Assembly (NCBI RefSeq): GCF_003116015.1
Contig: NZ_LGQZ01000028.1
Coordinates: forward strand, 38,459 to 102,458
Direction: 5' to 3'
Source of the DNA: Azospirillum sp. TSO22-1
GTDB lineage: Bacteria; Pseudomonadota; Alphaproteobacteria; Azospirillales; Azospirillaceae
Length of the DNA stretch: 64,000 bases
Shown here: positions 46,360 through 63,007 of the stretch, piece after piece
Layout of the letters: every line of letters begins with the position of its first letter
Position numbering within the stretch: the stretch's first letter is position 1
Position numbers and translations under genes: made by a program
Notes under the pieces: model-generated
What the model saw: the letters and a program-made list of their open reading frames with translations, nothing else
What the model was told of the DNA's origin: nothing
Database searches by the model: none

Positions 46360-46458
46360 CACTTGCCCCTACCCCAGCCCTCCCCCGCTGCGCAGGGGAG
46401 GGTGCCTCTTTTCCCCTCCCCTGCGCAGCGGGGGAGGGGTCAGGGGTGGGGGCAAGTG
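46360..46458. repeat. GC-rich intergenic inverted repeat, family A copy 4
   Basis: The longest and most regular copy: CACTTGCCCC at the left edge and GGGGCAAGTG at the right, with CCCCCGCTGCGCAGGGGAGG and its complement inside. It lies between the secreted-protein stop and the ivd promoter, just ahead of the operator at 46481. Confidence 0.9.
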
Positions 46459-46480
46459 TCACAGCCATTTCCACACTTCC

Positions 46481-46494
46481 ATACGCCACCGTAT
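46481..46494. promoter_or_regulatory. Candidate leucine-catabolism operator, ivd copy
   Basis: ATACGCCACCGTAT, 63 bases upstream of the ivd ATG. Matches the 14-base dyad ATACGSYACCGYAT found ahead of the thiolase, mccB and mccA genes. Confidence 0.65.
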
Positions 46495-46557
46495 CTTCCC
46501 AAGCGCCGTTCCACCCGCTATGTTAGGGCAACGAACGACATTCCCCGGGAGGAAACC

Positions 46558-47730
46558 ATGCTGTCCAACCAGCTGCCGTCGCTGAACTTCGACCTTGGCG
46601 AGACGGCGGACATGCTGCGCCATTCGGTGCGCGGCTTCGCGGCGGACGAGATCGCGCCGCGCGCGGCGGACATCGACCGCGAGAACGACTTCCCGGCCGA
46701 CCTCTGGCGCAAGATGGGCGACCTCGGCATCCTCGGCGTCACCGTCGAGGAGGAGTACGGCGGCGCCGGCATGGGCTATCTGGAGCACGTGGTGGCGATG
46801 GAGGAGATCTCCCGCGCCTCGGCCTCGGTGGGTCTCAGCTACGGCGCGCACTCCAACCTCTGCGTCAACCAGATCCGCAAGAACGGCACCGAGGAGCAGA
46901 AGCGCAAGTACCTGCCCAAGCTGGTCTCCGGCGAGCACGTCGGCGCGCTCGCCATGTCCGAGCCGGGCGCCGGCTCCGATGTGGTGTCCATGCGCCTGCG
47001 CGCCGACAAGAAGGGCGACCGGTACGTCCTCAACGGCACCAAGATGTGGATCACCAACGGCCCGGACGCCGACACCCTGGTGATCTACGCCAAGACCGAC
47101 CTGAACGCCGGCCCGCGCGGCATCACCGCCTTCCTGGTGGAGAAGGGCTTCAAGGGCTTCTCGGTGGCGCAGAAGCTCGACAAGCTGGGCATGCGCGGCT
47201 CCAACACCGGCGAACTGGTGTTCGAGGACTGCGAGGTGCCGGAGGAGAACGTGCTGGGCGGCATCGGGCGCGGCGTCAACGTGCTGATGTCCGGCCTGGA
47301 CTACGAGCGCGCGGTGCTGTCGGGCGGCCCGCTCGGCATCATGCAGGCCTGTATGGACATCGTGATTCCCTACATCCACGACCGCAAGCAGTTCGGCCAG
47401 CCGATCGGCGAGTTCCAGTTGATGCAGGGCAAGATTGCCGACATGTACACCATCATGAACGCCGCCAAGGCGTACGTGTACGCGGTGGCCAAGGCCTGCG
47501 ACCGCGGCGAGACCACCCGCAAGGACGCCGCCGCCGCCATCCTCTATTCCGCCGAGAAGGCGACGTGGATGGCGCTGGAGGCGATCCAGGTGCTTGGCGG
47601 CAACGGCTACATCAACGAATATCCGACGGGCCGCCTGCTGCGCGACGCCAAGCTCTACGAGATCGGCGCCGGCACCAGCGAGATCCGCCGGATGCTGATC
47701 GGCCGCGAGCTGTTCAAGGAGACGGCGTAA
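46558..47730 (+). CDS. ivd: Isovaleryl-CoA dehydrogenase
   Basis: Oxidises isovaleryl-CoA to 3-methylcrotonyl-CoA in leucine degradation, with electrons going to electron-transfer flavoprotein. 390 residues. [18 protein letters not shown] and [16 protein letters not shown] are typical; [17 protein letters not shown] carries the Glu position used as base in isovaleryl-CoA dehydrogenase, which differs from other acyl-CoA dehydrogenases. [20 protein letters not shown] and [15 protein letters not shown] close the protein. The leucine operator-like dyad lies 63 bases upstream. The NnrU-family gene follows after 18 bases and may be co-transcribed. Confidence 0.95.
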
Positions 47731-47748
47731 CACGGGAGGGGGTAGGGC

Positions 47749-48432
47749 ATGGGCTCGCTGATCGCCGCCGCTGTTTTCCTGCTGGTCACGCATTTCGGCA
47801 TCTCCTCGACGCCGCTGCGGGCCGTGCTGGTCGGGCGGATCGGCGAGCGGCCGTACCTCGGCCTCTACTCCCTCGTCTCCGCCGCGGCGTTCTGGTGGCT
47901 GGGCTCGGCCTACGCCGGCGCCTCCACCGCGCCGCTGTGGCCGACCTCCTCCTGGCAGGCCTGGGTGCCGCTGCTGGTGGTGCCGGTGTCGCTGCTGCTG
48001 CTGGTCGCCGGCTTCTCGACGCCGAACCCGACCGCGGTCGGACAGACCGCCGGATTGGAGCGGCCGGACGCCGTGCGCGGCATCCTGCGCGTCACCCGCA
48101 ACCCGTTCCTGTGGGGCGTCGGCCTGTGGGCGCTGGCGCACATGGTGCCGAACGGCGACAGCGCGGCGCTGGTGCTGTTCGGCACGCTGGCCGCGCTGGC
48201 GCTGGCCGGATCCGTTCTGATCGACGTGAAGCTGGCCCGGCGGCTGGGGCCGGCGTGGGATCGCTACGCCGCCGGGACCTCCAACGTTCCCTTCGCCGCC
48301 ATTTTGGCCGGCCGCCAGCGTTTCGTCTGGTCGGAGATCGGCTGGGTGCGGCTGGCGGCGGCGCTGGTGCTGTACGCCGCCTTCCTGCACGCCCACAAAT
48401 GGGTGTTCGGCGTGTCGCCGTTGCCGGCGTGA
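47749..48432 (+). CDS. NnrU-family membrane protein
   Basis: A 227-residue inner-membrane protein with about six hydrophobic segments. HFGISSTPLRAVLVGRIGER, ITRNPFLWGVGLWALAHMVPNG-like stretch (seen as VTRNPFLWGVGLWALAHMVPNG in two halves) and FPxGDxRS-like loops fit the NnrU family, first seen beside nitrite reduction genes but also found widely, including carotenoid and methyl-transfer proteins. Function here unknown. It follows ivd closely, so leucine-dependent expression is likely but its role in that path is not evident. Confidence 0.85.
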   Translation: MGSLIAAAVFLLVTHFGISSTPLRAVLVGRIGERPYLGLYSLVSAAAFWWLGSAYAGASTAPLWPTSSWQAWVPLLVVPVSLLLLVAGFSTPNPTAVGQTAGLERPDAVRGILRVTRNPFLWGVGLWALAHMVPNGDSAALVLFGTLAALALAGSVLIDVKLARRLGPAWDRYAAGTSNVPFAAILAGRQRFVWSEIGWVRLAAALVLYAAFLHAHKWVFGVSPLPA

Positions 48433-48540
48433 TCCCCGGTTACACTCTGTTACGCAACACCGGGCCGGCAGACATGGTGCCGTTACAGTGGGCGGCTAAG
48501 CATGGATGGCGTTCGACACCACCAACAAGGGCGGCCATCC

Positions 48541-48705
48541 ATGTTTCTCAAGCTGGTTCGCGGAGACGCCGACTTTTCTTCGTCGCGGGAGGCGGAGCAC
48601 CGTCAGGAGCTGCTGGAGAAGATCGTCAGCAACCTGGTGATCGCGCTGGCGATCTTCTTCGTGTCGTTCTTCTTCACGCTGTCCATCCTGGACTTCCTGC
48701 TGTAG
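48541..48705 (+). CDS. Small tail-anchored membrane protein, 54 aa
   Basis: A 54-residue protein with a soluble, charged N-terminal half (LVRGDADFSSSREAEHRQEL) and one C-terminal membrane helix (VIALAIFFVSFFFTLSILDF). No family recognised. ATG at 48541 follows an AAGGGCGGCC site; an in-frame ATG at 48502 is also possible. It converges on the DUF4139 gene with only three bases between stops. The clear amphipathic and hydrophobic pattern and low-complexity-free codon use support a real gene. Confidence 0.6.
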   Translation: MFLKLVRGDADFSSSREAEHRQELLEKIVSNLVIALAIFFVSFFFTLSILDFLL

Positions 48706-48708
48706 CGC

Positions 48709-50709
48709 CTACTGGACCCTCATTCCCCGCACCGCGTCGGCCAACGTCCGCCGCGCCTCGTCCACGTCCTTGCGGGCGGCGGCGAGATCCTTGGCGAGGC
48801 GTTCCAACTGCGTCTCCGCGTCGCCCATCTTGGCGGCGGTGCGGCGGGTGAGGTCGCCGTTCGGCGGCAGCGCGCCGAGGTTCTCGCGCAGGCGCGCCTG
48901 ATCCTTGATCACCTCGTCGCGTTCGCGTTCCACCGCGCCGATGCGGCGTTCGCGCTCGGCCACCGCCATGTGCAGGGCGGCCACGCGGCTCAGCGCCTCA
49001 CGCAGGGCGGCCGGCAGTTCGGACGAGGCGGCGTAGGCGAGGATGCGGTCGGACGACAGGCCGGTCAGCGCGACCTTCTCCTGCCGCGGCTGCTCGGCGA
49101 TCACGGTGAGCGTGACGGTGGCGCCGGCCGGCACCTCGACCGGCAGGCGGTGCGCGGTGGGCGTCGCCTCGCGCCCCCCCGCCGGCTCGACCAGCGTCCA
49201 GCCGGCGCGGCGCGGGTGCTCGACGATCACCGTGCGCGGCTCGCGGGCGGCGCCGGCCACGGTGTAGGTGGTGGTCTGCCGCTCGGTGACCGTCAGGTGC
49301 AGCACGCCATCGACGATGGAGGCGCGCGACAGCGTCTGGCTGGGTTGCTCGGCGCGGTCGATCCGGACCTTCTGGTCCACCGCGACGCTCAGCAGCCGCT
49401 GCTCGCCGGCCGGCAGAGCGGCGAGCTGGGCGTCGCCGACGTAGGACACCGTGCCGCCGTCGCGCTCGTACAGGGTCAGCACGCCGGGCGGCAGGCCGGT
49501 GCCGGAATCGTTGTCCAGCCGCACGGCGGCCAGCGGGTGGCGCGGCTGCGTCATCGGCTGATAGAGGTCGAGCCGCGCCGCCGGCACCGCGCGGGCGACG
49601 ATGGGCAGCAGCAGCGAACTGCCGTTCGGCGCCGACACCGGCTGCGGGTAGCGGAACAGGACCTGCGTCGTGGCTTCCGTTCCTTCGGCCGCCGCCGGCT
49701 GGGCGGAGCGCGGCGTGGGCGCCGGAGCCGAAGCCGCCTTGGCCATCGGCGCGGCCCCGGGCGCCGGCGGTGGCGGCGCCATCTCGGCGCTGCGGACCGT
49801 CATCGGCATGGCCACCGCGCCCTCGTCCGGGCGGGGCAGCACGCGGCCCAGCACCTCGACCGGCACCTCGGGCCGGTTGACGTAGTAGGCGGTGTAGAGC
49901 GCCTGCCGGAAGGTCACCGGGTTGCCGGACACCACGGTCAGGTCGACGCCCGTCCAGTCGGTGCCGCTCATGTTCTCCAGCACCGCCCAGCCCTGCAGGT
50001 CGCCCGATTTGGCTTCTCCAGCCGGCAGGGTCAGGCGGTAGGTCGCCTTCCACAGCGGCGCCGCCACCACGTAGCCGACGCGAACGGTGCGCGGTCCCTC
50101 GCCAGTGCTGCGGATGGTCAGGCTGCGGCGGTCGCGGGCGGTGTGCTTCGCCGTCGCCGCCAGCGCCGAGTCGACCTGCGCCTGCAGGGCCGGATCGGCG
50201 AGGCGCAGCGCCTCGGCGTCCTCCAGCAGCACCTGCTGCAGCCCGTCCGCGGTCATCAGCGTGACCCGGTGTCGCACCGTGGTGCCGCCGCCGTTGGGCA
50301 GCGCCGCCGCTTCCTCGGTGACCGATAGCAGGCGGCCGGCGATCTCGCGCGATCCGGCGGTGCGCACCTCGGCGCCCTTGAGCGCGGTGAGCAGGGCCGT
50401 CGGCGACTCCAGCGCCTCGGGGCCGAAGGGCAACTCGCGGAACAGCTCGCGCAGCGGCTCCTCGCCGGGCAGGCCGATGGTGCCGACGCCGCCCTTGTCG
50501 TCGTAGACGACGATGCTCTTCAGCACGTCGTCCACCTGGTCGCGCCGCACCTCCAGCGTCAGCTCGGCGTCGCCGGTCACCGCCGCCTCGTGCTCGAAAT
50601 AGCCGACGCCGCCGGTGGACAGCAGAACGCGCTTCAGCGCCAGTCCCTCGGCCCAGGCCGGGCCGGAGACAAGGGCGGCGGTCAGAACCAGGAGCGTCGG
50701 GCGGAGCAT
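48709..50709 (-). CDS. DUF4139 domain-containing secreted protein
   Basis: A 666-residue exported protein. A signal peptide (MLRPTLLVLTAALVSGPAWA) leads to a region with the start KRVLLSTGGVGYFEHEA and then the DUF4139 core (APLWKATYRLTLP, WAVLENMSGTDWTGVDLTVVSGNPVTF, TVEHPRRAGWTLVEP) and a C-terminal coiled coil with many charged residues (ERERRIGAVERERDEVIKD). Function unknown; likely periplasmic. Start at 50709 is set by the AAGG site and signal peptide, in preference to ATG 50724. It is divergent from the thiolase gene. Confidence 0.86.
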   Translation of the reverse strand: MLRPTLLVLTAALVSGPAWAEGLALKRVLLSTGGVGYFEHEAAVTGDAELTLEVRRDQVDDVLKSIVVYDDKGGVGTIGLPGEEPLRELFRELPFGPEALESPTALLTALKGAEVRTAGSREIAGRLLSVTEEAAALPNGGGTTVRHRVTLMTADGLQQVLLEDAEALRLADPALQAQVDSALAATAKHTARDRRSLTIRSTGEGPRTVRVGYVVAAPLWKATYRLTLPAGEAKSGDLQGWAVLENMSGTDWTGVDLTVVSGNPVTFRQALYTAYYVNRPEVPVEVLGRVLPRPDEGAVAMPMTVRSAEMAPPPPAPGAAPMAKAASAPAPTPRSAQPAAAEGTEATTQVLFRYPQPVSAPNGSSLLLPIVARAVPAARLDLYQPMTQPRHPLAAVRLDNDSGTGLPPGVLTLYERDGGTVSYVGDAQLAALPAGEQRLLSVAVDQKVRIDRAEQPSQTLSRASIVDGVLHLTVTERQTTTYTVAGAAREPRTVIVEHPRRAGWTLVEPAGGREATPTAHRLPVEVPAGATVTLTVIAEQPRQEKVALTGLSSDRILAYAASSELPAALREALSRVAALHMAVAERERRIGAVERERDEVIKDQARLRENLGALPPNGDLTRRTAAKMGDAETQLERLAKDLAAARKDVDEARRTLADAVRGMRVQ

Positions 50710-50773
50710 GCGGGCGCCTTTCATCGGTCGCGGGGTACCCCATGATACCGGCAAATCGGGAAACATTGCGGCC

Positions 50774-50787
50774 ATGCGGTGGCGTAT
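50774..50787. promoter_or_regulatory. Candidate leucine-catabolism operator, thiolase copy
   Basis: ATGCGGTGGCGTAT, whose reverse complement ATACGCCACCGCAT differs by one base from the ivd site. It is 68 bases upstream of the thiolase ATG and also within reach of the divergent DUF4139 gene. Confidence 0.6.
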
Positions 50788-50855
50788 GTTGGAATGTGCG
50801 CCGCCCTGCGCTTAGATGGAGCGGGCCAACAATCAGATACCAGGAGGAAGACACC

Positions 50856-52043
50856 ATGGCCACCGAAGATCCCGTCGTCATCGCCGGTGCGGCGCGCACG
50901 CCGATGGGCGGTTTCCAGGGCGACCTGCTGGGCCTGACCGCGCCGCAGCTGGGCGCCGCGGCGATCAGGGCCGCGGTGGAGCGCGCCCGCGTCCGACCGG
51001 AGGAGGTCGGCGAGGTGATCATGGGCTGCGTGCTGCCGGCCGGCCAGGGCCAGGCGCCCGCCCGTCAGGCGTCGCTCGGCGCCGGCATCCCGGAGGCCAT
51101 CGGCTGCACCACCGTCAACAAGATGTGCGGCTCGGGCATGAAGGCGGCGATGCTGGCGCACGACCTCATCAAGGCCGGCACCGCCGACATCATCGTCGCC
51201 GGCGGCATGGAGAGCATGTCGAACGCCCCCTACCTCCTGGACCGCGCGCGCGGCGGCTACCGCATGGGGCACGGCCGGATCCTTGACCACATGTTCCTCG
51301 ACGGGCTGGAGGACGCCTACGACAAGGGGCGCCTGATGGGCACCTTCGCCGAGGACTGCGCGCAGCATTATCAATTCACCCGCGAGGCGCAGGACGCCTA
51401 CGCCATCGAATCCCTCGCCCGCGCCCGCCGCGCCACCGAGGACGGCAGCTTCGCGGCCGAAATCGTCCCGGTGACGGTGAAGGGCCGCAAGGGCGACACG
51501 GTGATCGGCAAGGACGAGCAGCCGCTGAAGGGCGCACCGGACAAGATCCCGACCCTCAAGCCCGCCTTCCGCCCGGACGGCACGGTGACGGCGGCCAACG
51601 CCTCGTCGATCTCCGACGGTGGCGCGGCGCTGGTGCTGCTGAGGCGGTCCGAGGCCGAGCGGCGCGGCCTGCCGATCCTCGCCGAGATCAAGGGCCACGC
51701 CACGCACGCCCAGGCGCCGGCGTGGTTCACCACGGCGCCGGTCTACGCGATGCAGAAGGTGCTGGAGAAGACCGGCTGGGCGGCCAAGGACGTCGACCTG
51801 TTCGAGGTCAACGAGGCGTTCGCGGTGGTCGCCATGGCGGCGATGCGCGACCTCGACCTGCCGCACGACAAGGTGAACGTGCACGGCGGCGCCACCGCGC
51901 TGGGCCATCCGATCGGCGCGTCGGGTGCGCGCATCCTGGTGACGCTGCTGGCGGCGCTGGAGAAGTACGGCCTGAAGCGCGGCGTCGCCTCGCTGTGCAT
52001 CGGCGGCGGCGAGGCCACCGCGATGGCGGTGGAGCGGGTGTAA
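50856..52043 (+). CDS. Acetyl-CoA C-acetyltransferase (thiolase)
   Basis: Catalyses formation or cleavage of acetoacetyl-CoA. 395 residues. The nucleophilic Cys is in TTVNKMCGSGMKAAMLA near residue 90, the His in VNEAFAVVAMA and VNVHGGATALGHPIGASGAR, and the second Cys in VASLCIGGGEATAM. It heads an operon with the RidA and acyl-CoA dehydrogenase genes. An operator-like dyad shared with ivd and the methylcrotonyl-CoA carboxylase genes suggests a role in finishing leucine breakdown by cleaving acetoacetyl-CoA. Confidence 0.93.
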   Translation: MATEDPVVIAGAARTPMGGFQGDLLGLTAPQLGAAAIRAAVERARVRPEEVGEVIMGCVLPAGQGQAPARQASLGAGIPEAIGCTTVNKMCGSGMKAAMLAHDLIKAGTADIIVAGGMESMSNAPYLLDRARGGYRMGHGRILDHMFLDGLEDAYDKGRLMGTFAEDCAQHYQFTREAQDAYAIESLARARRATEDGSFAAEIVPVTVKGRKGDTVIGKDEQPLKGAPDKIPTLKPAFRPDGTVTAANASSISDGGAALVLLRRSEAERRGLPILAEIKGHATHAQAPAWFTTAPVYAMQKVLEKTGWAAKDVDLFEVNEAFAVVAMAAMRDLDLPHDKVNVHGGATALGHPIGASGARILVTLLAALEKYGLKRGVASLCIGGGEATAMAVERV

Positions 52044-52097
52044 AGCCTCCCCTCGCCCCCGGCGGGGGAGGGACTAAAAGAAACAATGGGAGGATCC

Positions 52098-52481
52098 ATG
52101 CCCCGCACGCTGATCTCCTCCGGCTCGGAGTTCGAGAAGGTCGCCGGCTATTCCCGCGCCGTGGTGGACGGCAAGTGGGTGTTCGTCTCCGGCACCACCG
52201 GGTTCGACTACGCCGCCGGCACCATTTCCGACGACGTCGTGGAGCAGACGCACCAGACCTTCCGCAACATCAAGGCGGCGCTGGAGAGCGCCGGGGCCGG
52301 CTTCGCCAACGTCGTGCGCATCCGCGTCTACCTGTGCGACGCCAAGGACTTCCCCCGCGTGGCGCCGGTGCTGGGCGAGTATCTGGGCGATGCGCGGCCG
52401 GCCAACACCACGGTGGTCTGCCAGCTGATCGACCCCCGCATGAAGATCGAGATCGAAGTCACCGCCAAGCGTGACGCCTGA
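52098..52481 (+). CDS. RidA-family protein
   Basis: A 127-residue protein of the RidA (YjgF/YER057c) family, trimeric enamine/imine deaminases or related ligand binders. VFVSGTTGFDYAAGTISDDV, the VRIRVYLCDAKDFPRVAPVL stretch and NTTVVCQLIDPRMKIEIEVT are typical. The usual catalytic Arg of true RidA is at VVxLxDPxxxIEIEA: here DPRMKIEIEV keeps the Arg. Role in this acyl-CoA operon unknown. ATG at 52098 follows GGGAGGATCC. The acyl-CoA dehydrogenase follows 21 bases on. Confidence 0.88.
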   Translation: MPRTLISSGSEFEKVAGYSRAVVDGKWVFVSGTTGFDYAAGTISDDVVEQTHQTFRNIKAALESAGAGFANVVRIRVYLCDAKDFPRVAPVLGEYLGDARPANTTVVCQLIDPRMKIEIEVTAKRDA

Positions 52482-52502
52482 GGACATTGGAGGAAACCGA
52501 CC

Positions 52503-53639
52503 ATGCGCCTGACCGAAGAGCAGGAGATGGTGCGCGACACGGCGCGCCGATTCGCGCAAGACCGCCTGAAGCCTGCCGCCGCGGAGCGCGACCGCACCCA
52601 CGCCTTCCCCGCCGCGGAGCTGGCGGAGATGGGCGCGCTCGGCCTGATGGGCATGGTGGTGCCGGAGGAGTACGGCGGCGCCGGCACCGACTTCGTCGCC
52701 TACGCGCTCGCCATCGAGGAGATCGCGGCGGGCGACGGCGCCATCTCCACCATCATGGCCGTGCACAACTCGGTCGGCTGCGTGCCGATCCTGAAGTACG
52801 GCACGCCGGAGCAGAAGGACCGCTTCCTGCGCCCGATGGCGCAAGGCGGGATGCTGGGCTGCTTCTGCCTGACCGAGCCGCAGGCCGGCTCCGACGCCGC
52901 CGCCATCAAAACCCGCGCGGTGCGCGACGGCGATTCGTACGTGCTCAACGGCTCCAAGCAGTTCATCACGTCCGGCAGGAACGCCCAGGTCGCCATCGTC
53001 TTCACCGTCACCGACCCGGGCGCCGGCAAGAAGGGCCTGTCGGCCTTCATCGTCCCGACCGACACGCCGGGCTATACGGTTGCGCGGGTCGAGGAGAAGA
53101 TGGGCCAGCACAGCTCGGACACGGCGCAGATCGTGTTCGAGGACTGCCGCGTTCCGGCCTCGCTGATGCTGGGCCGCGAGGGCGAGGGCTACAAGGTGGC
53201 GCTCGCCAACCTGGAGGGTGGGCGAATCGGCATCGGCGCCCAGGCGGTCGGCATGGCGCGTGCCGCCTATGAGGCCGCCCTGCACTACGCCAAGGAGCGC
53301 GAGAGCTTCGGCACCGCCATCATCAACCACCAGGCGGTCGCCTTCCGGTTGGCCGACATGGCCACAAGGGTCGAGGCGGCGCGGCAGATGGTTCTGCACG
53401 CGGCCAGCCTGCGCGACGCCGGGGTGCCCTGTCTGAAGGAGGCGGCGATGGCGAAGCTGTTCGCCTCGGAGGCGGCCGAGCGGGTGTGCGCCGACGCCAT
53501 CCAGGTGCACGGCGGCTACGGCTATCTCAACGATTTCCCGGTGGAGCGGATCTACCGCGACGTGCGGGTGTGCGCGATCTACGAGGGCACGTCGGACATC
53601 CAGCGGCTCATCATCTCGCGCCAGATCGCGGCGGAGTGA
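52503..53639 (+). CDS. Acyl-CoA dehydrogenase
   Basis: A 378-residue flavoenzyme of the short-chain group. [19 protein letters not shown] binds flavin and substrate, [19 protein letters not shown] follows, and the catalytic Glu lies in [14 protein letters not shown] at the C-terminus, the standard position and so different from the ivd gene product. Exact substrate unknown: butyryl-, isobutyryl- or 2-methylbutyryl-CoA are candidates. ATG at 52503 follows GGAGGAAACC. Third gene of the thiolase-RidA-dehydrogenase operon. Confidence 0.92.
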
Positions 53640-53894
53640 GCCGGCGGGGTCCGCGACTCGGGTGCCGGTTCGGGAAAAGTCCCCCTCCCCCACGACAGGG
53701 GAGGGGAGGCAAGGGGAAGCGCCCGGTCACCCTCCGGCCGCTTCGCACAACGGATCCGCGCGTCGGCGCAGGAGCCGTTCCGTGCATGGGCCGGCCGGCG
53801 CACGCCCACGGACGTGCGGTGCGCGCGCTCGAACCGGCGCTCCGTCTGGTCCAGGGTTCGCAGGGTCAGCACCATGTATCGAGTTCCTGTCGCT
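53640..53894. other. Gap of 255 bases
   Basis: It contains only a short GC-rich hairpin-like block (about 53680-53712) and no convincing gene. The acyl-CoA dehydrogenase operon and the small minus-strand gene at 53895 end toward each other here. Confidence 0.5.
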
Positions 53895-54080
53895 TCAGGC
53901 GGCGCGGCAGCGCGCCTGCGCCGATTCGATGTGGCGGCGCGCCTCGCTGAGCATGGCGCGGTGCTGGGCGATCGCCTCGCGCACCGGGACCTGGTGGCTG
54001 TAGACGCGCACTTCGTTGAGGATGCGGTCGGCACGGTCCAACAGGGCCATCCGGTGCAGGGATTCTTCGAAGCCGTTCAT
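53895..54080 (-). CDS. Small hypothetical protein, 61 aa
   Basis: A 61-residue helical, charged protein (MNGFEESLHRMALLDRADRI then VREAIAQHRAMLSEARRHIE) with no membrane segment or recognisable domain. ATG at 54080 follows GAGGGAAGAG, a good ribosome-binding site. It is divergent from the OmpR-type regulator gene with 232 bases between starts. Function unknown; the well-formed start context makes it a likely real gene. Confidence 0.6.
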   Translation of the reverse strand: MNGFEESLHRMALLDRADRILNEVRVYSHQVPVREAIAQHRAMLSEARRHIESAQARCRAA

Positions 54081-54240
54081 CTCTTCCCTCGTTCGTCCAG
54101 TCGGGTCTATCCCTTTCCCCGACGTTTGGGATTAAAGCGCTTCGATATGTCTTGCCGATTTCAGGTTTCTGCGTTTTTTGTTTCGTAGGAGCTCGGTGCT
54201 GTTTCACCCCACACACCCTTTTGCGGTAGGGGGGTAATGT

Positions 54241-54256
54241 GTTACAAGCTTGTAAC
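54241..54256. promoter_or_regulatory. Perfect 16-base palindrome upstream of a response regulator
   Basis: GTTACAAGCTTGTAAC is its own reverse complement, 57 bases ahead of the OmpR-type gene at 54313 and 160 bases ahead of the divergent 61-residue gene. It is AT-richer than its surroundings and could be an autoregulatory site. Confidence 0.55.
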
Positions 54257-54312
54257 CGGGAAGCCCGTGGCGCCCGGTGGCGTCCGAAAACGGGGCGATG
54301 GGGGAAAGCGCG

Positions 54313-55026
54313 ATGCACATTCTTGCGGTCGATGACGACGAGCCGATTCGCGAGCTGCTGGCGTCCTACCTGACGGCCGAGGGCTATCGCGTCTCCACGG
54401 CACCCGACACGGCGAGCGCCAAGCAGGTGCTGGAGGGCGACCCGATCGACCTCGTGGTGTGCGACCTGCGCCTGCCGGACGGCGACGGCCTGGGGCTGGT
54501 GCGGCAGATCCGCACCGAGTCGCAGATCCCCGTCATCATCCTGTCCTCCAAGGACCAGGACGTCGACCGCATCGTCGGGCTGGAGCTCGGTGCCGATGAC
54601 TACCTGACCAAGCCGTTCAACCCGCGCGAACTGCTGGCCCGCATCAAGGCGGTGCTGCGCCGTGTCTCGGCCGAGGCGCGCCCGGCGCGCGGCGCGGACG
54701 AGTTGCGCGCCGTGGTGCAGTTCGCCAACTGGGAGCTGGACCTCACCGCGCAGCGTCTGCGCAACCAGGAGGGCCGCGAGGTCGAGCTGACCAAGGCGGA
54801 GTTCGGCCTGCTCGCCGCCTTCGTCAAGCGCCCACAGCGAGTGCTGAGCCGCGACCAGCTGCTCGACCTGACGCGCGCCGACGGGGCGGAGGTGTTCGAC
54901 CGCTCCATCGACGTGCTGATCCTGCGCCTGCGCCGCAAGATCGAGGCGAATCCCAAGGAGCCGCGCATCATCAAGACCGAGCGCGGCGCCGGTTACGTCT
55001 TCGACGCCAAGGTGCGGGCGGTTTGA
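54313..55026 (+). CDS. OmpR-family response regulator
   Basis: 237 residues: receiver domain at residues 1-120 with acidic pocket DDD at 7-9, phosphoacceptor D51 in VVCDLRLPDGDG, Thr/Ser in ILSSKD and Lys in LTKPFNPRELLARI, followed by a winged-helix output domain at about 145-230 (VELTKAEFGLLAAFVKRPQR, RSIDVLILRLRRKIE, TERGAGYVF). No sensor kinase gene is adjacent. A perfect 16-base palindrome upstream may be its own target. Target genes are unknown. Confidence 0.93.
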   Translation: MHILAVDDDEPIRELLASYLTAEGYRVSTAPDTASAKQVLEGDPIDLVVCDLRLPDGDGLGLVRQIRTESQIPVIILSSKDQDVDRIVGLELGADDYLTKPFNPRELLARIKAVLRRVSAEARPARGADELRAVVQFANWELDLTAQRLRNQEGREVELTKAEFGLLAAFVKRPQRVLSRDQLLDLTRADGAEVFDRSIDVLILRLRRKIEANPKEPRIIKTERGAGYVFDAKVRAV

Positions 55027-55100
55027 GCATTCGGGCGTTGCCGCGGCCGTCGCGCCGGGTTTAGCCTTTCCGGAAAAGCAATTCCGGGAGGAGACCCAGG

Positions 55101-55703
55101 ATGGCCGCGCCCATCGACTTCTATTTCGACTTCGCGTCGCCCTACGGCTATTTCGCCAGCCTGCAGATCGACGACCTCGCGGCGAAGCACGGCCGCTCGG
55201 TGACGTGGCGCCCGGTGCTGCTGGGCGCGATCTTCAAGGTCACGGGCATGAAGCCCAACCTGCAGCAGCCGCTGCGCGGCGAATACCTGCAGCGCGACGC
55301 CACGCGCATCGCCCGCCTGCTGCGCTGCCCCTTCACCTTCCCGGCGTCGACCCCGGTGAACCCGGTGGCCGCGTCCCGCGCCTACTGGTGGCGCTTCGCC
55401 GAGGATCCGGAGGCGGCCAAAGCGATTGCCCGCGCGCTCTACCACGCCCACTGGGGCGAGGGCCGCGACATCGGCGACGCCGACACGGCGGCCGGGGTCG
55501 CCGGCACCACCGGCCTCGATCCCGCCGCGGTGTCGGCCGGCATGCAGGACCAGACGGTGAAGGACCGCCTGCGCGCGGAGACCGACGGCGCCATCGGCCG
55601 CGGCGTCTTTGGCTCGCCCTTCGTGCTGGTCGGCGACGAGCCCTTCTGGGGCTGGGATCGCCTGGACATGGTGGACCGCTGGCTGGCGACTGGAGGGTGG
55701 TGA
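55101..55703 (+). CDS. 2-hydroxychromene-2-carboxylate isomerase / DsbA-like (kappa GST) protein
   Basis: A 200-residue thioredoxin-fold protein of the DsbA-like superfamily. DFYFDFASPYGYFASLQID is the family start where the CXXC of DsbA is replaced by SPYG, RPVLLGAIFKVTG follows, and GVFGSPFVLVGDEPFWGWDRL is the C-terminal cis-Pro region. Members isomerise hydroxychromene carboxylates in naphthalene catabolism or conjugate glutathione; the actual substrate is not known and no aromatic genes are nearby. ATG at 55101 follows GGGAGGAGACCC. Confidence 0.9.
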   Translation: MAAPIDFYFDFASPYGYFASLQIDDLAAKHGRSVTWRPVLLGAIFKVTGMKPNLQQPLRGEYLQRDATRIARLLRCPFTFPASTPVNPVAASRAYWWRFAEDPEAAKAIARALYHAHWGEGRDIGDADTAAGVAGTTGLDPAAVSAGMQDQTVKDRLRAETDGAIGRGVFGSPFVLVGDEPFWGWDRLDMVDRWLATGGW

Positions 55704-55795
55704 GGAGAACCGCTGGAGGGTGGCCCCGGGCCACCCGACTGGCCGACCTCGACGCCGCGGCATCCTCTTCCAGCGAATCGTGTTATCCTCGGGAC

Positions 55796-55966
55796 ATGGC
55801 TGAATCTGCGCATCTTTTCGAAGCCGAGGACGACGACGCCAAGCGGCGCGCCGTCGCCGAGGCGCGTGCCGAGCTGGCCGCCGGCAAGGGCGTGCCACAC
55901 GAGCGCGTTCGCGAATGGCTGAACGATCTGGCGGCTGGGCGCCGTACGCCGAAGCCGGGGGCGTGA
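55796..55966 (+). CDS. Antitoxin of a type II toxin-antitoxin pair
   Basis: A 56-residue acidic protein (MAESAHLFEAEDDDAKRRAV then GVPHERVREWLNDLAAGRRT). The pattern ARAELAAGKGVPHERVREWL is that of antitoxins paired with RelE/ParE toxins in alphaproteobacteria. It is followed at once by a toxin-like gene that carries a frameshift, so it now probably serves no functional partner here. Start at 55796; an upstream region in the same frame belongs to a shadow of the isomerase gene. Confidence 0.8.
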   Translation: MAESAHLFEAEDDDAKRRAVAEARAELAAGKGVPHERVREWLNDLAAGRRTPKPGA

Positions 55967-55970
55967 TGCG

Positions 55971-56242
55971 GTGCGGGTGATCTGGTCGCCGTCGGCTGTC
56001 GACGACGTCGAGCGCATCTACGACTACATCGCCCTGTTCAACCCCGCCGCGGCGGCGGGGATGGTCATTCGTCTGCGTGAGGCGGGCGATGCGTTTTGCG
56101 ACCTGCCGGACCGCGGGTGGCCCGGATCGGTCCCGGTACACGTGAGTTGGTCGCCGTCCGCCCATACGCCCTGGTTTATGAGGTCACCGGTCCCGAGGTC
56201 CACATCTTGCGCGTTTGGCACGGCGCACAGCGTCGCGGCTAA
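55971..56242 (+). pseudogene. Frameshifted RelE/ParE-type toxin
   Basis: The first part from GTG 55971 reads RVIWSPSAVDDVERIYDYIA and DAFCDLPDRGWPGSVP, the usual ParE/RelE N-terminal half. From base 56135 the family continuation is in another frame: GTRELVAVRPYALVYEVTGP and EVHILRVWHGAQRRG, stop at 56242. One base is missing near 56131-56135, in TCCCGG, where PGSVP should join GTREL. In frame the gene would run on with unrelated residues to 56309. The toxin is thus probably inactive, unless the missing base is a sequencing error. The antitoxin just upstream is intact. Confidence 0.82.
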
Positions 56243-56254
56243 AACCGCTTGCCC

Positions 56255-56268
56255 ATACGGCACCGTAT
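56255..56268. promoter_or_regulatory. Candidate leucine-catabolism operator, mccB copy
   Basis: ATACGGCACCGTAT, 68 bases upstream of the carboxylase beta ATG and 12 bases after the toxin remnant. TTGCCC directly precedes it. Confidence 0.7.
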
Positions 56269-56336
56269 GGTGCAAGCTGCCCCGGTCCTGGCAGAGAAGG
56301 GTGCGCTGAAGCACCGCCGGCGGGGAGGAAATACGA

Positions 56337-57944
<1,608 letters not shown>

Positions 57945-57960
57945 CGGGGAGGGCAGAAAC

Positions 57961-58746
57961 ATGAGCGACATCCTCACCGACATCCGCGCCGACGGCGTCG
58001 CCACGGTCACCATGAACCGCGGCGACGTGCACAACGCCTTCAACGAGACGGTCATCGCCGACCTCGCCGAGGCCTTCCGGCGGCTGGGCGCCGACCCGGC
58101 GGTGCGGCTGGTCCTGCTGCGCGGCACCGGCAAGAGCTTCTCGGCCGGCGCCGATCTCTCGTGGATGCAGCGCATGGCCGGCTACGGCCACGACGAGAAC
58201 GTGGCCGACGCCATGGGGCTCGCGGTCATGCTGCGCACGCTCGACACCTGCCCGAAGCCGACGGTGGCGGTGGTGCAGGGGCCGGCCTACGGCGGCGGGG
58301 TGGGGCTGGTCGCCGCCTGCGACATTGCCGTCTGCGCCGACACCGCCAGCTTCGCGTTGACCGAGGTGCGGCTTGGCCTCATCCCCGCGGTGATCTCGCC
58401 CTACGTGGTGGCCGCCATGGGCGAGCGCGCCTGCCGCCGCTACTTCCTGACCGCCGAGCGCTTCTCCGCATCCGAGGCGCACCGCCTCGGCCTCGTGCAC
58501 GAGGTGGTGCCGGCGGCCGAGCTGGACGCCGCGGCCGAGACCATGGTCGCCAAGCTGATGGAGGGCGCCCCCGGCGCCCAGGGGGCCGCCAAGGACCTGA
58601 TCCGCGCCGTGGTCAACCACCCCCTGGACGACGCGCTGGTCCGCGACACCGCCGAGCGCATCGCCCGCCAGCGCGCCAGCGCCGAGGGTCGGGAGGGGGT
58701 GGGCGCGTTCCTCGGGAAAACCAGGCCGGGCTGGCAAAATCGCTGA
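57961..58746 (+). CDS. Enoyl-CoA hydratase (methylglutaconyl-CoA hydratase type)
   Basis: A crotonase-fold enzyme of 261 residues. FSAGADLSWMQRMAGYG and QGPAYGGGVGLVAACDIAVC carry the oxyanion glycine region, and FALTEVRLGLIPAVISPYVV has the catalytic Glu position. Placed between the two methylcrotonyl-CoA carboxylase genes, it is expected to hydrate 3-methylglutaconyl-CoA to hydroxymethylglutaryl-CoA. Start 57961 follows GGGGAGGGC 16 bases after the mccB stop. Belonging to the leucine operon is inferred from position. Confidence 0.92.
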   Translation: MSDILTDIRADGVATVTMNRGDVHNAFNETVIADLAEAFRRLGADPAVRLVLLRGTGKSFSAGADLSWMQRMAGYGHDENVADAMGLAVMLRTLDTCPKPTVAVVQGPAYGGGVGLVAACDIAVCADTASFALTEVRLGLIPAVISPYVVAAMGERACRRYFLTAERFSASEAHRLGLVHEVVPAAELDAAAETMVAKLMEGAPGAQGAAKDLIRAVVNHPLDDALVRDTAERIARQRASAEGREGVGAFLGKTRPGWQNR

Positions 58747-58802
58747 CTCCCCGCGACCTTGCGGCGCTATAAGAACCGGCCGTTTTTTGCTTATAGTGTC
58801 GT

Positions 58803-59795
58803 ATGGATCAGTCGGTTCCCGAGCGTCGCGCCAAGGCGGCTTCCCTGCCTTCGGCCACCCCCGCGCCACACCCCGCCGCACGCCGGTCGTGGCTGGGTGG
58901 GGCGATGTTCACGGCGTTCCTGCTCGGCCTGATCGCGCTGTCGATCCGCTCGGTCTCCGGCGATCTGGCGTTCGTGCTGCTGGGCTCGGTCGGCATCGTG
59001 GTGGGCGTCTTCCACTACGTGTTTCCGGGCAGCCAGTTCTTCACGCTGGCGCTGGCGAACTTCATCGGCGTGTACGCCTGCATCTTCGTCTTCTTCCTGG
59101 AAAGCAACTTCCACTCCATCGGCCCGCTGTCGCAAGGAGTGGGCTTCGCCATGCCGCTGATGGCGTTCCTCGGCGGGGCGTGGTGGCGAGCGCGCGATAT
59201 CCGCTCCATCGTCCAGTCGCGGCGCCTACGCGACGGCGGGCAGCTCGACCGCGTGTTCCTGTGGATGGCGCCGGTGTGGGGCATCGGCGCGCTGACCTTC
59301 CTGGTGCCCGGCCACGACATGGCGCCGGAGCTGCTGTCCGAGCTGTTCGTCGCCGCCATGGGCGCCATCGCGCTGGTGGTGCTGTTCGTCAGCCGCGACA
59401 TCGCCATCTTCCTGCTCGACGCCGGGCTGTTGTTCGAAGGCTTCTTCCAGCAGGCGTCGCGCCTTGTGCTGCCGGCCTTCGCCTTCCTGACCTTCTATTC
59501 GCTGACCATCATCCTGTTCGGGTCGCTGTACACGATCATGGACCGCTTCATGGGCGAGCCGAACTTCATCATCGACGGCGTGCGGCGCGACCTGACCTTC
59601 CCCGAGGGGCTGTACTTTTCGCTGATCACCTTCGCCACTGTCGGCTATGGCGACATCTACCCGATCACCGGCGCGGTCCGCATCGTCTGCGCGGTGGAGA
59701 TCGTCACCGGCGTGCTGCTGCTGCTGTTCGGCTTCAGCGCCATCATCGGCCACGCCCGGCCGCACGACCGGGCGGACCATCGGGATCCGTTGTAA
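58803..59795 (+). CDS. Potassium channel family protein
   Basis: A 330-residue membrane protein with at least six hydrophobic segments and an ion-channel pore near the C-terminus: FATVGYGDIYPITGAVRIVC has the potassium selectivity filter TVGYGD, flanked by SLTIILFGSLYTIM and ETVTGVLLLLFGFSAII-like helices (VEIVTGVLLLLFGFSAIIG). The N-terminal 30 residues are a charged, Pro-rich cytoplasmic tail. Its place inside a leucine-catabolism operon is odd. Start at 58803 has no strong ribosome-binding site; the GTATGG start is supported by the frame. Confidence 0.85.
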   Translation: MDQSVPERRAKAASLPSATPAPHPAARRSWLGGAMFTAFLLGLIALSIRSVSGDLAFVLLGSVGIVVGVFHYVFPGSQFFTLALANFIGVYACIFVFFLESNFHSIGPLSQGVGFAMPLMAFLGGAWWRARDIRSIVQSRRLRDGGQLDRVFLWMAPVWGIGALTFLVPGHDMAPELLSELFVAAMGAIALVVLFVSRDIAIFLLDAGLLFEGFFQQASRLVLPAFAFLTFYSLTIILFGSLYTIMDRFMGEPNFIIDGVRRDLTFPEGLYFSLITFATVGYGDIYPITGAVRIVCAVEIVTGVLLLLFGFSAIIGHARPHDRADHRDPL

Positions 59796-59832
59796 GGGCG
59801 ATCCGCTGTGGGCGGCACGCGGCCGCTTTACA

Positions 59833-59846
59833 ATACGGTACCGTAT
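59833..59846. promoter_or_regulatory. Candidate leucine-catabolism operator, mccA copy
   Basis: ATACGGTACCGTAT is a perfect 14-base palindrome, 47 bases upstream of the alpha-subunit start, directly after TTTACA. It is the most symmetric of the four copies. Confidence 0.75.
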
Positions 59847-59893
59847 AGATAAGCTGCGCCCAGAAGAAGAAGGCACCGGGGAGGACCAGGGCC

Positions 59894-61900
<2,007 letters not shown>

Positions 61901-62101: not shown

Positions 62102-63007
62102 ATGCCCTATCCCACCCGCGTCAAGATCGTCGAGATGGGCCCGCGCGACGGCCTGCAGAACGAGGCGGCCATCGTCCCCCTGGACGCCAAGGTCGAGCTG
62201 ATCGAACGCCTCGCCGACGCCGGCCTGCCGGCGGTCGAGGCCGGCGCCTTCGTCAGCCCGAAGTGGGTCCCCCAGATGGCCGATTCGGCCGAGGTGCTGC
62301 AGCGGATCCGCCGCAAGCCCGGCGTCTCCTACCCGGTGCTGGTGCCCAACCTGAAGGGCCTGGAGTCGGCCATCGCGGCCGGCGCGCAGGAGATCGCGGT
62401 GTTCGGCGCCGCCTCCGAAGCCTTTTCGCAGAAGAACATCAACTGCTCCATCGCCGAGAGCCTGGAGCGCTTCGCCCCGGTCTGCGCCGAGGCGCTGGCC
62501 AAGGGCCTGACGGTGCGCGGCTACGTCAGCTGCGTGCTCGGCTGCCCCTACGAGGGCGCGGTTGCCCCGGCCAAGGTAGCGGAGGTCGCGGCCAGGCTGA
62601 TCGAGCTGGGCTGCTACGAGGTCTCGCTCGGCGACACCATCGGCGTCGGCACGCCCATGAAGGCCCGCGCCATGCTGGAGACGGTGGCGCACGCCGTGCC
62701 GGTCGAGCGCCTGGCGCTGCACTTCCACGACACCTGGGGGCAGGCGCTGGCCAACATCCTGGCCTGCCTGGAGCTGGGCGTGGCGGTGGTGGACTCGGCG
62801 GTGGCCGGGCTCGGCGGCTGCCCCTACGCCAAGGGGGCGTCCGGCAACGTGGCGACCGAGGACGTCGTCTACATGCTGCACGGCTTGGGGCTGGAGACCG
62901 GCGTCGACCTGGACGCGCTGGCGGCGACCGGCGCCTGGATCTCCGGCGTGCTCGGCCGGCCGACGGCGTCGAAGGCCGGGCGGGCGCTGGCTGCACGTGC
63001 GGCGTGA
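62102..63007 (+). CDS. Hydroxymethylglutaryl-CoA lyase
   Basis: Cleaves HMG-CoA to acetyl-CoA and acetoacetate, the last step of leucine degradation. 301 residues. [20 protein letters not shown] holds the Asp/Arg pair, [14 protein letters not shown] and [14 protein letters not shown] follow, [15 protein letters not shown] has the metal histidines, and the catalytic Cys lies in [23 protein letters not shown] at 62102 follows GAGCCC. It is in line with the carboxylase genes, separated by the family D repeat, and so completes the pathway here. Confidence 0.95.

Follow-up and report, generated by a model that had tools for sequence, protein, structure and literature searches.

Why should four scattered gene units for leucine and acyl-CoA breakdown each be preceded by the same short dyad, and which protein reads it? 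The question is raised by the window analysed here, a stretch of 64,000 nucleotides (nt) from Azospirillum sp. TSO22-1 (C21:38459-102458 of the genome G000, which comprises 7.35 Mb in 250 contigs), where the dyad stands ahead of ivd, of the thiolase gene thl, of mccB and of mccA. We conclude that the four dyads are probably operators of a TetR-family repressor encoded on another contig, C245, which would control a dispersed leucine/acyl-CoA regulon. The C245 TetR protein is the likely switch of the pathway because the same dyad is found at its own gene and because the ivd dyad and the TetR gene are present or absent together.

The consensus ATACGSYACCGYAT occurs exactly at 46481 on the forward strand, at 50774 on the reverse strand, at 56255 on the forward strand and at 59833 on both strands, and at no other site in the window. 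These five exact strand matches compare with 0 expected from 100 dinucleotide shuffles of the window; when up to two mismatches are allowed, there are eight strand matches against 1.03 expected, and 0 shuffles reach eight. The four positions given in an earlier interpretation of this DNA, hereafter the sequence-only reading, were thus all exact and lie beyond chance. The operator-like dyads, none of them assigned to a strand, are CCATACGCCACCGTATCT before ivd (46479..46496; 12 of 14 fixed positions), CCATGCGGTGGCGTATGT before the thiolase operon (50772..50789; 12 of 14), the perfect dyad CCATACGGCACCGTATGG before mccB (56253..56270; 14 of 14, the only place in the genome with 0 mismatches) and CAATACGGTACCGTATAG before mccA (59831..59848; 12 of 14). 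The mccA site had been called a perfect palindrome, which holds for its 14-base core. The distance from dyad end to start codon is 63 nt at ivd, 68 nt at the thiolase gene, 68 nt at mccB and 47 nt at mccA, in agreement with the range of 47-68 reported before.

Other details of the earlier description needed correction. The thiolase-side site had been assigned to the reverse strand; the asymmetric consensus does read on that strand, but the thiolase gene itself lies on the forward strand, and the same dyad also faces a divergent gene at 48709-50724 on the reverse strand. A -35-like hexamer, proposed for three sites, was seen abutting the dyad at two, as TTGCCC at mccB and TTTACA at mccA; the sequence before the dyad is CACTTCC at ivd and TTGCGGCC at the thiolase site, neither of them -35-like. 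The 14-base consensus is real, but its centre is too tight and its ends are too short when set against the fuller element found across relatives, CCATACG-N4-CGTATGG, in which the four central bases vary and the flanks are kept. Read by eye, the element in the wider family is nearer CCATAC-N6-GTATGG. Directly upstream of the ivd dyad, at 46360-46458, there is in addition a nested GC-rich inverted repeat, with 25-nt arms that are 100% complementary within 27-nt arms that are 81% complementary, which looks like a repeat element or an intergenic terminator.

When the whole genome was scanned, ATACGSYACCGYAT was found exactly at seven places, namely the four window sites, mmsA (C202), a place ahead of leuD (C223) and the gap that separates a TetR-family gene from a thioesterase gene (C245). 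Six of the seven are at leucine/acyl-CoA genes or the regulator, so that exact matches gather at such genes and at one regulator gene rather than at random, as the sequence-only reading had anticipated. Its proposal of a shared operator for a local leucine regulon is supported as to the shared operator; the regulon itself reaches beyond this neighbourhood, since other contigs hold the regulator and additional sites. The pattern ATACGSNNSCGYAY gave 12 distinct places and 17 strand matches versus 4 for a reversed control, and the five whose arms are fully symmetric, ATACGSNNSCGTAT, are those at ivd, mccB and mccA and two in the TetR gap. With up to two mismatches to the 18-mer CCATACGNNNNCGTATGG, 23 places were obtained versus 7 for the reversed control, nine of them at ivd, thl, mccB, mccA, the TetR gene (two), a MatB-like CoA ligase gene, an aldehyde dehydrogenase gene and etfB. 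At the level of genes, a site scoring 12/14 or more lies within 300 nt of 11 of the 175 predicted in the window and eight other loci of this genome, a count that is biased in that seven of the eight loci were picked for containing matches; ten of the 11 belong to the named units or are divergent neighbours sharing the site.

The regulator gene had been placed outside the window, and the candidate is indeed encoded on a different contig, at G000:C245:23971-24519, where it shares a gap bearing two dyads with a divergent 4HBT thioesterase gene. Its product matches the N-terminal TetR helix-turn-helix model PF00440 with 37.6 bits (cut-off 24), and its AlphaFold2 (AF2) model, with a predicted local distance difference test score (pLDDT) of 92, is all-helical and TetR-like; the fold matches listed from the PDB are TetR-type regulators, with Bacillus FadR among the top ones and also QacR and HapR. 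Of 119 relatives searched, 49 have close homologues (E up to 1e-25), among them 43 of the 45 that belong to the genus. The two-dyad TetR/thioesterase gap recurs in G010, whose TetR is the closest homologue of the C245 protein in the genus, and a dyad stands directly before the TetR gene in G001, G003, G008 and G018; altogether, a dyad scoring 12/14 or better is found in the roughly 250 nt before this gene in 20 of the 43 genus genomes. The TetR gene and ivd lie on the same contig in 35 of the 43 genomes and at most 30 kb apart in 30.

Conservation of the site was assessed by scanning the 300 nt upstream of ivd in 45 genus genomes and scoring the 14 fixed positions. In 43 of the 45 genomes, ivd is preceded by a dyad that matches 12 or more of these positions, a score that 3 of 4,400 base shuffles reach; this genome and G010 score 12, G003 scores 13 and the other 40 score 14. 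Across genomes the dyad stands 37-68 nt before ivd, and its arms hardly vary, with centres as diverse as GTAA, TCGC, CAGC, CCGC, GTAC, CTGC, GTTC and CCAC; 17 of 44 parsed ivd promoters contain two or more such sites. The two genomes without an ivd dyad, G027 and G028, are also the only two in which a C245-type TetR was not found: G027 gave no match even at E 1e-4, and G028 gave only one 27% partial match (E 4e-5). This joint absence corresponds to a Fisher p of 0.001, a value that ignores kinship. Footprint, synteny and joint absence favour the second of the two regulator classes that the sequence-only reading had left open, a LiuR-type (MerR) or a TetR-type protein, and speak against LiuR's MerR class. 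In G027 a different TetR-type gene (L223:11221-11829; also L156) is divergent from ivd, with AAACG-N6-CGTTT, a pattern read by eye, between them, an apparent case of regulator replacement.

Homologous TetR loci beyond the genus were retrieved with a C245-led alignment of eight sequences, and the best 80 loci were analysed. A dyad of at least 12/14 lies within about 350 nt upstream of 72 of the 80 TetR genes, versus 12 of the 849 other genes predicted in the same loci. Judged by eye, those 12 are two ivd, four enoyl-CoA hydratase, three thioesterase and three electron transfer flavoprotein (ETF)-quinone oxidoreductase genes; they represent nine sites, because each thioesterase/ETF-quinone oxidoreductase pair shares one. 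In L249, L290 and L294 the dyad separates an ETF-quinone oxidoreductase-like gene from a thioesterase-like one at a distance from the TetR gene, a second putative target in common. An etfB-like gene is divergent from the TetR gene in 56 of the best 80 loci according to a motif test, and leucine genes adjoin the TetR gene in L242, L243, L267 and L270. The 80 loci are not independent cases, because clustering at 65% identity groups them into 11 clusters; the dyad is present in at least one member of 10 of the 11 clusters and in all members of seven. Most come from Rhodocyclales and their relatives, together with Azospirillum, other Rhodospirillales and Oceanospirillaceae; one belongs to a Mesoflavibacter record, and the rest are proteobacterial where title or lineage is given.

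According to the mechanism that we propose from these patterns, a TetR dimer would bind the 14-18 bp dyads close to the start of each unit, and the bound protein would block the promoter and keep the leucine-breakdown genes off. Autoregulation is predicted too, along with control of the divergent thioesterase gene. A branched-chain acyl-CoA derived from leucine, for example isovaleryl-CoA, would presumably release TetR and turn the genes on. In clade B, TAACGT lies at the dyad centre, 17 nt after a TTGCC- hexamer (read by eye), so that operator and -10 element may overlap.

Several observations weigh against this interpretation. Twelve of the 23 places within two mismatches have no evident link to the pathway, and a scan with the sigma-70 consensus returned 0 promoters at any of the four dyads. 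In 23 of the 43 TetR-bearing genus genomes there is no dyad within 250 nt upstream of the TetR gene, and both this genome and G010 carry that gene off the contig of ivd. Three prospective targets fare poorly in comparison across genomes. The biosynthetic gene leuD, whose site lies 125 nt upstream, is rejected as a target because the site is unconserved, being present in this genome only among 30 loci (29 other genomes), and it looks accidental; the etfB dyad is likewise confined to this genome in the 27 loci parsed out of 30 from the genus; and at mmsA the site scores 10/14 here and reaches 12 in one of 23 others, so that the gene is kept as a weak candidate. The acyl-CoA ligand is itself a guess from the targets, because the folds of QacR and HapR match too, besides that of FadR.

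A further difficulty concerns which TetR protein is meant. In a 36-row tree the C245 TetR and that of G010 form a pair (99/99) separate from the TetRs of other Azospirillum, and the deeper forks are weak; because the C245 protein groups with G010 only, strict orthology to the others is in doubt. In addition, a second TetR gene (L316, G000:C191:7628-8086) encodes a protein that shares 37% identity with the C245 protein, and upstream of the gene lies a dyad, CCATACAGAACAGCATGG, of the form CCATAC-N6-GCATGG, so that this paralogue could share the leucine-unit sites. The dyads might even be operators of the C191 protein, or of another related TetR, in place of the C245 protein, an account to which both the likeness of C191 and the tree lend some weight. 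We nevertheless consider it unlikely: besides the leucine units, only the C245 gap has places with symmetric arms, two of them; the closest homologue of the C245 protein, in G010, also has the two-dyad gap and the divergent thioesterase gene; and it is the C245-led subfamily that carries the dyad at 72 of its best 80 loci.

Control by a LiuR-type regulator of the MerR family, usual for proteobacterial leucine genes, would fit the wide distribution of that class, since PMC5343134 gives reconstructed LiuR regulons of this pathway for 103 genomes from 15 taxa versus 14 genomes from three taxa for LiuQ. However, the regulator genes seen with the dyad are of the TetR type, an observation made without a search aimed at MerR genes in this genome, and TetR and dyad are missing together from G027 and G028; control by LiuR is accordingly very improbable. 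That the dyads have no regulatory role and reflect a repeat element or chance is an idea prompted by palindromes of the same skeleton, CATACGACGTCGTATG and CATACGCAGCCGTATG, which occur elsewhere without evident common function. Yet the shuffle controls of the window and of the ivd footprint, together with the contrast between TetR genes and other genes in the best 80 loci, are hard to reconcile with it, and the fixed place before ivd with constant arms and a free centre refutes it in effect, leaving it a negligible probability. Operators of the C245 TetR repressor are therefore the explanation that we retain.

Some sites point to possible weaker members of the C245 regulon, namely the MatB-like CoA ligase gene, the aldehyde dehydrogenase gene, etfB, mmsA and, on C206, an enoyl-CoA hydratase-like gene. 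For genes on other contigs, the designations MatB, aldehyde dehydrogenase, leuD and etfB were assigned by eye from sequence; the C202 gene mmsA scores above the NCBIfam cut-off as methylmalonate-semialdehyde dehydrogenase. The C206 site (L230:1505-1522; 12/14) is one of the two remaining places among the 23 and lies 82 nt upstream of the enoyl-CoA hydratase-like gene, a possible further target, with an ABC transporter ATPase-like gene coming next. The other (C98, L234:6201-6218; 13/14) lies inside an isobutyryl-CoA dehydrogenase-like gene, within its first 100 nt at the codons for PYAAEW, at the head of a valine-type gene set; it is perhaps a coding coincidence or an intragenic operator.

Other candidates were set aside. 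Among places with one mismatch to the first consensus, those on C179, ahead of mutM, and on C183, ahead of a chemoreceptor-like gene, show no clear connection; others are on C66, where no genes were predicted, and on C13, C43 and C217, viewed as bare sequence. The very loose pattern RTRCGSNNSCGYAY hits 117 places and is GC-rich among the matches listed. The CATACGCAGCCGTATG palindrome lies inside a coding gene in four loci viewed, one of them with a TAGC centre, and the longer CATACGACGTCGTATG recurs in many Azospirillum genomes, where the three contexts viewed (L178, L183, L187) place it at genes other than those for leucine.

The genes behind the four operators, all on the forward strand, were located by gene prediction and assigned to families by NCBIfam/Pfam profile searches. 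The first unit consists of ivd (46558..47730), encoding an isovaleryl-CoA dehydrogenase-like protein that matches acyl-CoA dehydrogenase models and whose best match in each other genus genome is 88-94% identical. The second comprises thl (50856..52043), an acetyl-CoA C-acetyltransferase gene (NF005404, 696.7 bits, cut-off 687), a gene for a RidA-like (L-PSP) protein (52098..52481; PF01042) and acd2 (52503..53639), encoding a second acyl-CoA dehydrogenase with a homologue in the one-piece operon of relatives. The third contains mccB (56337..57944), for the carboxyltransferase subunit of methylcrotonyl-CoA carboxylase (carboxyltransferase models), and a liuC-like enoyl-CoA hydratase gene (57961..58746), whose best model is gamma-carboxygeranoyl-CoA hydratase. 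The fourth begins with mccA (59894..61900), for the biotin carboxylase/biotin carrier subunit (NF006367, 618.4 bits, cut-off 597; its mcc name comes from context), with the hydroxymethylglutaryl-CoA lyase gene hmgL downstream (62102..63007; NF004283, 469.7 bits, cut-off 246). The names ivd, acd2, mccB and liuC rest on operon and pathway context, because the broad-family scores fall below the curated cut-offs; the labels liuC and MatB follow common usage, and the pathway logic is general background.

In five relatives (G001, G010, G011, G032 and G036) these genes form one operon, ivd-thl-acd2-mccB-liuC-mccA, behind a single dyad region; hmgL is then the next gene after mccA in four of the five, and the stretch viewed in G001 ends at mccA. 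In the genome studied here the same genes form four units separated by other genes, each with its own dyad, and an operator for each unit would keep the scattered genes under one switch. The gene order in G027 is ivd-mccB-liuC-mccA-hmgL. In G028 (C69:8000-27000) only ivd and acd2 adjoin, with no dyad, and thl, mccB, liuC, mccA and hmgL do not occur in the stretch viewed.

A broader history can be drawn from these arrangements, to which we assign about an even chance. A TetR subfamily, unnamed in the literature found and spread across Alpha-, Beta- and Gammaproteobacteria, would read CCATAC-N6-GTATGG as its one fixed operator and tie ETF and ETF-quinone oxidoreductase, through which acyl-CoA oxidation discharges its electrons, to the acyl-CoA dehydrogenases that supply them; it would have taken over the Azospirillum leucine operon, its operator being copied to each fragment when the operon broke up, and in G027 both regulator and dyad would have been replaced. 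For plant-associated Azospirillum, the present results put forward a concrete candidate regulator of leucine breakdown together with its operator; they also present an operon that was scattered, with one and the same operator at every piece. In Rhodocyclales this protein-operator pair stands beside ETF genes, which suggests a wider circuit of acyl-CoA/ETF control.

The system is of a known kind, and we could not match its regulator-operator pair to a named one. A literature search on Azospirillum isovaleryl-CoA dehydrogenase and leucine breakdown yielded no regulator paper by title or abstract start, and five operator strings were not found as a regulator site in the literature searched, which gave one unrelated match. 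By title, the literature on LiuQ, FadP and etfBA yielded nothing further than PMC5343134. Bacillus FadR is an acyl-CoA-responsive TetR regulator of acyl-CoA genes, and its fold matches the C245 model with a TM-score of about 0.7; however, identity in the fold alignments is 12-18%, and the C245 protein scores 24.8 bits on the NCBIfam FadR equivalog NF053878, far below the cut-off of 200. The LiuQ regulon of Betaproteobacteria was reportedly described by Kazakov et al. in 2009 and was later extended in PMC5343134. In Rhodobacter sphaeroides, isovaleryl-CoA dehydrogenase and a methylcrotonyl-CoA carboxylase subunit appear in the expression heat map of an RSP_0489 mutant, and the chromatin immunoprecipitation sequencing (ChIP-seq) figure for RSP_0489, a regulator, names other promoters (PMC4344238). 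PMC5343134 describes LiuR (MerR) and LiuQ (TetR, in Betaproteobacteria only) as predicted regulators of branched-chain amino acid utilization, and FadP (TetR) as a regulator of fatty acid degradation in Ralstonia, Burkholderia and Comamonadaceae. As portrayed there, FadP resembles the C245 protein as a TetR regulator of acyl-CoA degradation genes, but its lineages are not among the titles of the best 80 loci, a separation made by description and not by motif. LiuR serves the same pathway; it belongs to the MerR family, whereas the dyad here goes with TetR genes. LiuQ, compared by description in that source rather than by sequence or motif, is restricted to Betaproteobacteria, whereas the C245 TetR is alphaproteobacterial; like LiuQ, the C245 candidate is a TetR-family protein associated with branched-chain amino acid genes, which it would control.

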